Positions 41,113 to 42,875 of a stretch of DNA of 64,000 nt are shown in pieces. A program made the position numbers and the translations under genes. The DNA comes from Arenibacter sp. ARW7G5Y1 (GTDB taxonomy: Bacteria; Bacteroidota; Bacteroidia; Flavobacteriales; Flavobacteriaceae): contig NZ_QJJZ01000009.1 in assembly GCF_003201775.1 (NCBI RefSeq), positions 124,001 through 188,000 on the forward strand, written 5' to 3'. Numbering within the stretch: the first letter of the stretch is position 1; every line of letters begins with the position of its first letter. The notes beneath the pieces were generated by a model. The model made no database searches, was not told where the DNA came from, and saw only the letters and a program-made list of their open reading frames with translations.

Positions 41113-41808
41113 TCATTTTTTCTGGGTGTTTGGATTATTAAGTCTAACGACCTTTATACATTCATTGTTGAATTCCACATGGTACTGTTTTCCTTTCTCT
41201 TGTAATACTAGTTCAAACTCGGAAGGAAAGGCTTTGTCATTGGTAGGGAACCATCTTCTATGGGCTTTGTCAATACATATAAATAATCCATATTCATCCC
41301 CCATGGCACAAAAATTTCCAAACCCTCCATCATAGATCCCAATTCCCATAGCATCCCTTAAGATACTAAAAACGTTTTCAATATTACTAGTAGGGATTCC
41401 AATTTCCGAAATTCCCAGGAACAGTTCCGGTCCAAAATTCCGTTCCGATCCATTTCTTAAGTTTTTACGCGCTATAAGCTCCACAATATTTTTGTCCGGG
41501 TCGTAAAAGTAGATGGCTCTTGCATTCCAGGCCGTGAAATTGATAATGTCATCTTGGCCGTCTTTCAAAATGGTAAGTCTGGATTTGATCCATAGCAATG
41601 CTTCTTCCTCTTTATTGGCAGGGATATTGATAGCAAAATGATAAGGTGTAGCCGTTTTTTTTAGTTCAAAATGGAGTAGGGTATAGCCAATTTGAAAGGA
41701 AATATTTTTGGAAGATTTTTTCACTACTACCAATCCCAACACTTGAGAGTAAAACTCAGTTTGCCTCCCAATATGGGAAGTGTATAGGGTCAGTTCCTTA
41801 ATCTTCAT
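41113..41808 (-). CDS. VOC (glyoxalase/bleomycin-resistance) family protein, two VOC modules
   Basis: This 231-residue protein has two glyoxalase-like modules, IKELTLYTSHIGRQTEFYSQ with VLGLVVV (first) and EIGIPTSNIENVFSILRDAM (second). YFYDPDKNIVELIARK matches the third strand of the first module. VOC proteins include dioxygenases and lyases; the reaction is not known. A downstream small membrane protein is 7 bp away. Confidence 0.85.
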   Translation of the reverse strand: MKIKELTLYTSHIGRQTEFYSQVLGLVVVKKSSKNISFQIGYTLLHFELKKTATPYHFAINIPANKEEEALLWIKSRLTILKDGQDDIINFTAWNARAIYFYDPDKNIVELIARKNLRNGSERNFGPELFLGISEIGIPTSNIENVFSILRDAMGIGIYDGGFGNFCAMGDEYGLFICIDKAHRRWFPTNDKAFPSEFELVLQEKGKQYHVEFNNECIKVVRLNNPNTQKK

Positions 41809-41973: not shown

Positions 41974-42504
41974 CTATTCGCAAATACTACAGTTGGAGTC
42001 ACCTGTAAGTTTGCCCGCCACATTTATTTCAAATTTACAGCATTCATTAAAGTTATGGATAAGAAGTGATTTTGCACGTCTAATCCTTGCTTTAACGTTG
42101 GCCAAGCTAATTCCCAATTCTTCTGCCGCTGCCCTTTGGGTTTTGCCCTGTAGGTACACCAAATGAATTGCTTCTTTGTAAGCTTGGGGTAAGTTGGTTA
42201 CAAACCGATCAAAACAACAGAATTCCTGATGACCGTCGTTAGTGGATGAAATTTCATACCTAGGGTTATGATGCACAGCTTTGGAGGTAAGATGGTAATG
42301 ATTGGCAATTTCATTTCTAACAATGGTAAATACCCATGCCCTAACTTTTTCCGAGTCCTTTAAGGTGTTTATTTTTTGATGGATTTTAAGGAAGGCGTTC
42401 TGAATTATCTCTCTAGTTGCTTCCTCATCTTTTACTTTTTTCAAAATAAAAAAGTAAATTTCGCTATAGTGTTTTTTCCAAATGTCTGCCGTTTCAATCT
42501 TCAT
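41974..42504 (-). CDS. sigZ: ECF RNA polymerase sigma factor, SigZ-like
   Basis: This 176-residue sigma-70-family protein has region 2 (SEIYFFILKKVKDEEATREI, NAFLKIHQKI, VRAWVFTIVRNEIANHY) and region 4 (LPQAYKEAIHLVYLQGKTQR, AAEELGISLANVKARIRRAK). The C-terminus has a Cys-rich tail CCKFEINVAGKLTGDSNCSI plus CE, typical of the SigZ group. The Cys tail suggests metal or redox sensing by the sigma factor itself. The metallothionein-like gene lies 42 bp upstream on the same strand. No anti-sigma gene is visible. Confidence 0.9.
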   Translation of the reverse strand: MKIETADIWKKHYSEIYFFILKKVKDEEATREIIQNAFLKIHQKINTLKDSEKVRAWVFTIVRNEIANHYHLTSKAVHHNPRYEISSTNDGHQEFCCFDRFVTNLPQAYKEAIHLVYLQGKTQRAAAEELGISLANVKARIRRAKSLLIHNFNECCKFEINVAGKLTGDSNCSICE

Positions 42505-42519
42505 AAGTATAATATACGA

Positions 42520-42548
42520 GGTTGGCCTTGAAAGACCAACCTTTTTTT
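42520..42548 (+). terminator. Hairpin with plus-strand T-run between sigZ and the metallothionein-like gene
   Basis: GGTTGGCC (42520-42527), loop TTGAAA, GACCAACC (42534-42541) and then seven T form a rho-independent terminator on the plus strand. On the minus strand it lies between the metallothionein-like stop and the sigZ start with no T-run, so there it is a hairpin that could lower sigZ expression. Confidence 0.7.
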
Positions 42549-42660
42549 AACAACATTCACATTTGCTACAATCGCATTTACTGCAAGGACAATTTTTTTC
42601 CAAACAGTTCTCACAATTACATTTGGTGCATTCGCATTGGATACATTTACAATTGTTCAT
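42547..42660 (-). CDS. Metallothionein-like Cys-rich small protein
   Basis: This 37-residue protein was found by translating the gap upstream of sigZ. It reads MNNCKCIQCECTKCNCENC (1-19), then LEKNCPCSKCDCSKCECC (20-37). It has 14 cysteines (38%), nearly all in CxC or CxxC spacing, and almost no aromatic residues, the composition of metallothioneins. It would bind Cu(I), Zn(II) or Cd(II) in the cytoplasm. It lies directly before sigZ on the same strand, with a hairpin between them. It does not look like cyanobacterial SmtA, which has His and aromatic residues. A chance ORF with such regular cysteine spacing is very unlikely. Confidence 0.85.
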   Translation of the reverse strand: MNNCKCIQCECTKCNCENCLEKNCPCSKCDCSKCECC

Positions 42661-42875
42661 TTCTAAAAGATTTAAAGTTTATTAAGGAGACCAACTTTGG
42701 CCAAAAAGGATACAAAAAAAATAGGTGATTTTGTGTGATATTTTGGCAGGTTGATAAAAGATAAAGGCTAAACACGCTTCAGGATTATATTCTTACGAGA
42801 ATTACCCCTAAAATTTCCATGTTAGGATGTCCCATATACTTTGTAATCATTACCGTATATAAAAAACACTGAAGC

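Follow-up and report, generated by a model that had tools for sequence, protein, structure and literature searches.

Metallothioneins are a known kind of protein, and so are ECF sigma factors that carry Cys tails. The former are usually small, with about 20–40% Cys in CxC/CxxC packing and no aromatic residues, while for ECF sigma factors a small co-oriented partner gene is where anti-sigmas usually lie. In the accounts given of CorE and CorE2 of Myxococcus xanthus (ECF44, now ECF238), which act in metal homeostasis, a C-terminal Cys domain and a linker CXC are essential and there is no linked anti-sigma (PMC8999054, PMC3107203, PMC9023288); the tails are written there as Cys-x4-Cys-x2-Cys-x-Cys for CorE and CC-x3-C-x2-C-x-C for CorE2 (PMC9023288). 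For OrbS of Burkholderia cenocepacia the same text describes a C-terminal, on-board, Cys-rich metal sensor of an ECF sigma (PMC9023288). On the side of the metal-binding proteins, SmtB and RicR are the named regulators of bacterial metallothioneins in the relevant part of one source (PMC10141476), and the metal cluster of the Pseudomonas metallothionein is given as Cys9His in another (PMC7387436). The open-licence literature yielded no paper joining SigZ with a metallothionein, and no described signal for the SigZ sigma family was found in it.

How does the locus considered here compare? It lies in a stretch of 64,000 nucleotides of Arenibacter sp. ARW7G5Y1 DNA, positions 124001–188000 of contig C9 of the source genome G000, which is referred to as the window, and its features are collected in Table 1. 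An ORF that starts with ATG and has the product MNNCKCIQCECTKCNCENCLEKNCPCSKCDCSKCECC (14 Cys in 37 residues, 38%) is followed after a spacer of 42 bp, on the same strand, by the ORF of a sigma factor; coordinates and ORFs thus agree with a preliminary description of the locus, which had placed a 37-residue, 14-Cys peptide just upstream of the sigma. The Cys-rich tail that it gave to the sigma is also real. The sigma has Sigma70 regions 2 and 4 only and is accordingly an ECF sigma. It resembles CorE and CorE2, so far as those accounts go, in having a Cys tail, a linker Cys and no linked anti-sigma (no neighbour family of at least 70 aa occurs in more than 4 of 46 loci), and CorE2 likewise has a tail that opens with CC. 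However, its tail, CC-x15-CxxC, does not have the spacing reported for either of them, the linker of this sigma type has CC or a single Cys in place of their CXC, and it is paired with a metallothionein-like gene. Since the number and spacing of Cys differ, it is not classed as CorE-like, though we propose, by analogy, that it may work as CorE and CorE2 do. OrbS too has a Cys-rich C terminus on an ECF sigma (here a putative sensor), and differs, in the portion of the source that concerns it, in its inhibition by Fe(II), its ornibactin genes and its Cys spacing.

Table 1. Positions in the window of the peptide gene, the sigma gene and their associated elements
Feature	Position	Strand	Remark
Metallothionein-like protein, 37 aa, 14 Cys	42547..42660	-	Two 7-Cys halves, LEKN between
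SigZ-like ECF sigma factor, 176 aa	41974..42504	-	Sigma70_r2 + Sigma70_r4_2
Linker Cys97 codon, between sigma regions 2 and 4	42214..42216	-	Invariant in 22 aligned sigmas
C-terminal Cys tail CC-x15-CxxC (C155, C156, C172, C175), putative metal sensor	41977..42042	-	Alignment
-35 element GTATCCTTTT of SigZ-type promoter	42704..42713	-	Promoter alignment; best model match in source genome
-10 element GTCTCC	42686..42691	-	20 nt from ATC of -35 to GTCT
Intercistronic hairpin, 22 nt	42520..42541	-	Begins 5 nt past stop codon; covariation

Many canonical members of SigZ (TIGR02959) share with the window sigma a Cys tail and the same promoter motif. The earlier label ‘SigZ-type’ stands, as two SigZ models are the best-scoring NCBIfam sigma families for it; that it is a SigZ equivalog does not, its score against TIGR02959 being 129.6 bits with a cut-off of 168.65. 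It differs further in the adjoining Cys-rich peptide, whereas six annotated loci of canonical type lie with ars genes, and two peptide-linked clades are separate from canonical SigZ in a tree that is weakly supported. As to the peptide, SmtA, the Pseudomonas metallothioneins (Zn, Cd) and MymT (Cu) are likewise small and Cys-rich, and, as with these, a role as metal buffer is proposed. Their regulators in the text cited are SmtB and RicR (PMC10141476), in contrast to the linked sigma factor here. With 14 Cys and no His, the peptide is not of the SmtA/Pseudomonas type, for which a cluster of Cys plus His is described (PMC7387436).

Could so Cys-rich a frame be due to chance? Its Cys fraction, 0.378, exceeds that of every other ORF in the window with an ATG start and 30 aa or more, and is to be set against a peak of 0.176 in 100 dinucleotide shuffles of the window. 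Among 15 same-genus genes (105 pairs) omega is 0.053, with pN 0.103 and pS 0.704, the latter being near saturation, while the two shifted frames of the same genes give pN/pS of 1.98 and 1.34. The value is not near one, and the reading frame is conserved in relatives. All 14 Cys are retained in 58 distinct 37-codon peptide genes, a set chosen with Cys demanded at four of the 14 positions, and TGT and TGC swap at Cys codons. A chance Cys-rich frame is excluded by the shuffles, the Cys retention and the omega relative to that of the shifted frames: it is confirmed that this is a real conserved gene for a Cys-rich protein. Two types of such peptide are distinguished, type A (37 aa, 14 Cys in two 7-Cys halves) and type B (33–34 aa, 11 Cys). 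The window peptide lacks F, W, Y and H, has the whole of the metallothionein make-up given at the outset, and probably binds metal. No family in Pfam or NCBIfam matches it at E up to 1, a PDB sequence search at E up to 1 gave no match, and Pfam at E up to 0.1 gave none for the peptides of four other loci (L053, L022, L012, L045).

The peptide gene and the Cys-tailed sigma gene travel together in many Bacteroidota. The sigma protein was searched for in 149 related genomes, 138 of which gave some ECF match, and at 27 of the 30 fetched loci that were inspected a Cys-rich ORF is immediately upstream; the three without it (L029–L031) have sigma homologues without a Cys tail. A type-A sigma alignment scanned against a named genome collection gave 64 loci, and in 56 of these, with gaps up to 212 nt, the upstream peptide is present, as in Arenibacter, Maribacter, Aequorivita, Salegentibacter, Psychroflexus, Polaribacter, Joostella, Mesonia, Algibacter, Flavivirga, Ulvibacter, Gillisia, Aquimarina, Kaistella, Brumimicrobium, Roseivirga, Echinicola, a Saprospiraceae MAG and others. 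The eight peptide-less ones are L130, L149, L160 (Sinanaerobacter) and L162–L166, remote sigmas. Approached from the other gene, 44 of the 299 genomes of the family contain a match to a profile of the peptide, which leaves the supposed rarity of metallothioneins in Bacteroidota less well supported, and in 43 of those 44 a Cys-tailed sigma is downstream, with gaps up to about 250 nt, so that in this search of relatives the peptide does stay beside the sigma. The exception, G671, has a peptide and no close sigma homologue; this orphan (L072, G671:C70, minus strand, about 1501–1611) is type-A-like with a longer C terminus, and two small genes downstream of it resemble, by eye, an antitoxin and a PIN-type toxin. 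Among 18 same-genus genomes both genes are found in 15 and neither in three (G010, G011, G017), which are without a close sigma and also without a peptide match. These three linkage counts, the co-absence, the common promoter motif and the metal-related genes beside related sigmas sustain the earlier suggestion that a metallothionein-like protein and a Cys-tailed sigma form one unit. The closest named records by sigma gene are from Arenibacter algicola and A. echinorum, 83% identical, with the own genome possibly excluded. One genome, G002, has four SigZ-like matches of near-equal score (contigs C13, C14, C15 and C3); two lie 33 bases from the start of a contig, which would fit a repeated element.

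In a set of 109 distinct sigmas, whose query enriches type A and whose members are phylogenetically non-independent, a Cys-rich peptide is encoded within 1.5 kb on either side for 70 of the 84 with CC..CxxC tails, for 7 of 15 with other tails of at least 3 Cys, and for 1 of 10 with fewer, this one (L148) having a broken frame. Of the 14 CC..CxxC-tailed sigmas with no peptide within that distance, 12 are outside the type A and B clades; the tail-less homologues L029–L031 and L058 have no peptide. Alignment of 22 peptide-linked sigmas shows C97, C155, C156 and C172 to be invariant and C175 nearly so, the linker having CC in type A and a single Cys in type B. The AlphaFold2 model has confident domains, a disordered linker (77–93) and a low-confidence tail (block-mean pLDDT 60–76), and in a fold search almost every one of the best 30 of 560 matches (E up to 0.001) is an ECF sigma or a relative of one, with a low global TM. 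When 61 sigmas are placed in a tree, weakly supported with 21 of 58 inner branches open, those linked to type A form one group (87/92) and those linked to type B another (78/90), and the remaining peptide-linked sigmas nest among canonical SigZ at two places. Nor does any third gene travel with the pair in the 46-locus survey, which omits the window locus, includes three other Arenibacter loci, counts the peptide-less L130 and L149 and has four loci that span only about 3.1 kb; no larger conserved operon was found in these loci. The VOC gene downstream of the sigma (41113–41808) was set aside as a partner, a search of NCBIfam at E up to 1e-5 having given it no match.

What drives the pair? Both genes seem to be expressed from a single promoter of their own. 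Upstream of the peptide genes is the motif G[CT][AG]TC[CT]TT followed, at fixed spacing, by GTCT, in type A as GTATC[CT]TT...GTCT and in type B as GC[AG]TC[CT]TT...GTCT. In its strict form it occurs within 120 nt upstream in 91 of 102 peptide contexts (by crude typing, 61 of 69 type A, 28 of 31 type B and 2 of 2 others), with an average of 0.02 in 50 shuffles, and 11 of the 102 are without it. It starts 52–56 nt before the ATG in 84 of the 91, and because its second base is T in 61/61 type-A matches and C in 28/28 type-B matches, promoter and sigma subtype co-vary. With an expression permitting several spacings, the distance from ATC to GTCT is exactly 20 nt in 83 of 86 distinct promoters. A gap-free alignment of 62 type-A promoters has 12 invariant columns, most of which are already fixed by the expression that selected them. 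Model R1, a sequence-only promoter model built from these 62, has its top match at this operon in all of the 13 genomes on which it was tried, all 13 promoters having been in its training set and 150 first-look candidates being scored per genome. In the source genome (G000) its own site scores 24.2 bits and the next, partial match 16.6, and among the candidates scored there was no sign of a motif common to many promoters of the genome; with a matrix from which rows at least 80% identical had been removed the site scores 29.7, the runner-up having 7.8 when the matrix is complete. In G070 there is a second match, L180, with 18.5 bits as against 22.5 for the operon's own site by R1, and 25.0 by the matrix as against 21.4 for the own site with relatives removed, and G015 holds an extra one, L181 (22.9, compared with 35.9 for its own site). 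As R1 is best at this operon, and these two genomes have one extra match each, the regulon is probably this operon and few other sites. The match in L180 (G070:C2, about 1499–2264) is followed by a gene for a predicted protein of 195 aa that begins like a lipoprotein. A loose version of the promoter pattern has 5 matches in the window with 3.14 expected, no better than chance.

By a simple criterion of folding, 58 of the 69 type-A contexts have between the two genes, a few nt past the stop, a hairpin similar to that of the window; it is absent in 11, e.g. L101, L136, L151 and L157. In an alignment of 32 sequences hand-chosen for the stem, which inflates the percentage paired and the double changes less so, paired cells make up 93.7% and changes on both sides are seen in 8 of 11 pairs; none of 500 shuffles attains this level of double change. 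We infer that it may serve as a partial terminator or stabiliser. Two same-genus genomes (L016/L017) have about 100 nt extra between hairpin and sigma gene, with gene gaps of 142–154 nt.

Taken from comparisons of sequence, the picture that we consider fairly probable is of an autoregulated two-gene cassette, in which the sigma would sense a thiophilic metal(loid), induce the metallothionein and itself, and be reset by the metal binding of the peptide. A thiophilic metal or metalloid, such as arsenite, cadmium, zinc, copper or the like, would bind the sigma at the Cys of its linker and tail, and the metal-bound sigma would become active and transcribe its own operon. The hairpin might end or protect many transcripts past the first gene, leaving peptide in excess of sigma, and the peptide would hold the metal in thiolate clusters, with protection of the cell and return of the sigma to its inactive form.

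The inducers are likely to be thiophilic metals or arsenite, since arsenic and cation-efflux genes are the company in which related sigmas, and the motif, are found. A search of 395 phylum genomes with SigZ models matched 92 (E up to 1e-25), and at 10 of the best 30 loci, which were fetched, there is a Cys-rich peptide, upstream in L045, L053, type-B L055, L056, L057 and L059 and downstream in L046, L047, L048 and L054. Six of ten further SigZ loci were annotated, L032, L036, L042 and L045 being outside the scan. An arsenite methyltransferase gene is near a SigZ-like sigma in L160, L033 and L034, ACR3 in L160 and L044, and ArsI/CadI in L035, L044 and L041; L160 also has an ArsR/SmtB-type regulator and L035 an arsenate reductase-like fragment, below cut-offs. 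A Hymenobacter plasmid has arsC and ACR3 about 2 kb from SigZ. The motif gives 21 matches in 15 of 29 SigZ-relative loci, which overlap partly with those that suggested the expression, whereas 100 shuffles gave 0.2 on average and never more than 2, and the 24 control loci have 1 match. It is upstream of arsM (L033, L034, L160) and arsI/cadI (L044), of Cys-rich peptides (L045 as a variant, L046, L047, L048, L053, L197) and of the sigma itself (L035 as a variant, L046, L047, L048, L052, L054, L060, L197). In L197 (6027–6180), from the plasmid of a Hymenobacter sp., the peptide concerned has 22 aa and three CC pairs, adjoins arsC and ACR3, and is absent from the annotation. Zunongwangia pacifica (L130) and Marixanthotalea marina (L149) have a type-A sigma and no peptide; in the former a type-A motif precedes a Cation_efflux protein (Pfam, 41.2 bits) that ends in CCCD, and in both such motifs precede TonB-dependent receptors, that of L149 having been scanned and that of L130 assigned by clustering with it. 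Some genes that have no known part in metal handling also have the motif in front of them (L036, L052, L060). With the tail-less L029–L031 and L058 there was no match to the first motif expression, and one weak variant, in L030, with another. The SigZ of Priestia is without the CxxC, and the annotation shows no metal gene close to it; a plasmid collection has 155 records with a sigma relative of less than 60% identity, of which three were inspected and two show no annotated metal genes.

The same neighbourhoods bear on whether metal could be incidental, the tail Cys of the sigma sensing oxidants or electrophiles and the peptide being a thiol buffer in a redox or thiol-stress cassette. Cys pairs are able to form disulfides, and in Vibrio cortegadensis plasmid p1 (L199, 3029–3806) a similar motif precedes a glutathione S-transferase-like gene with a Cys-rich C terminus, two genes before the one adjoining sigZ. 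However, several SigZ neighbours and motif targets at annotated loci are arsM, arsI/cadI, acr3 and cation-efflux genes, and aromatic-free CxC/CxxC packing is typical of metallothioneins, which makes the redox proposal improbable. In a similarly unlikely reading the peptide is mainly a regulator rather than a detoxifier, a metal-dependent anti-sigma that binds the tail of the sigma or strips it of metal. Its place as a small co-oriented partner is the usual one for an anti-sigma, and the 46 loci offer no other recurrent neighbour as candidate; yet in four of the SigZ-related loci its gene comes after that of the sigma, L046, L047 and L048 having a motif of their own before each gene and L054 a motif before the sigma and a variant before the peptide, and an orphan peptide exists (L072). 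CorE-type sigmas, moreover, are described, in the sections available, as functioning without a linked anti-sigma (PMC8999054, PMC3107203). A Cys-rich leader peptide, on whose 14 Cys codons ribosome stalling would set the hairpin and so the read-through into sigZ according to cysteine supply, would account for a short Cys-rich ORF with a hairpin 5 nt past its stop and a regulated gene behind, and is very improbable indeed given the 14 Cys and CxC/CxxC spacing kept in 58 genes (4 of the 14 demanded in selection), the four loci in which the peptide is 3′ of the sigma, which does not suit an attenuator, the 11 of 69 type-A contexts that lack the hairpin, the 142–154 nt gaps of L016/L017 and the orphan L072.

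To return to the metal-sensing cassette, a wider version of it is tentative and in our judgement a shade short of an even chance: SigZ would be a family of thiophilic metal(loid) sigmas with one ancient promoter code, repeated capture of micropeptides and, in Flavobacteriia, a near single-promoter regulon with a metallothionein off-switch. The code G[CT][AG]TC[CT]TT...GTCT would then extend over a Bacillota ars locus, Bacteroidota and perhaps a Vibrio plasmid, the captured micropeptides would be those of 37 aa with 14 Cys, 33–34 aa with 11 Cys, 26–30 aa, 43 aa and the CC-type 22 aa, and the Flavobacteriia metallothionein would be both effector and off-switch, taking metal from the tail of the sigma.

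As far as the searches show, these families of peptides and the way they pair with a sigma are new, and so are the motif in the promoters and the finding that SigZ is linked both to arsenic genes and to Cys-rich peptides. If the proposals above are true, metallothionein-like families that Pfam and NCBIfam models miss would be added, and the two-gene circuit could be rebuilt as a biosensor. The pair would be a minimal self-contained feedback circuit, a sensor-activator and a metal buffer travelling as two genes, and the SigZ sigma family would gain a testable signal, metal or arsenite, together with a promoter sequence.
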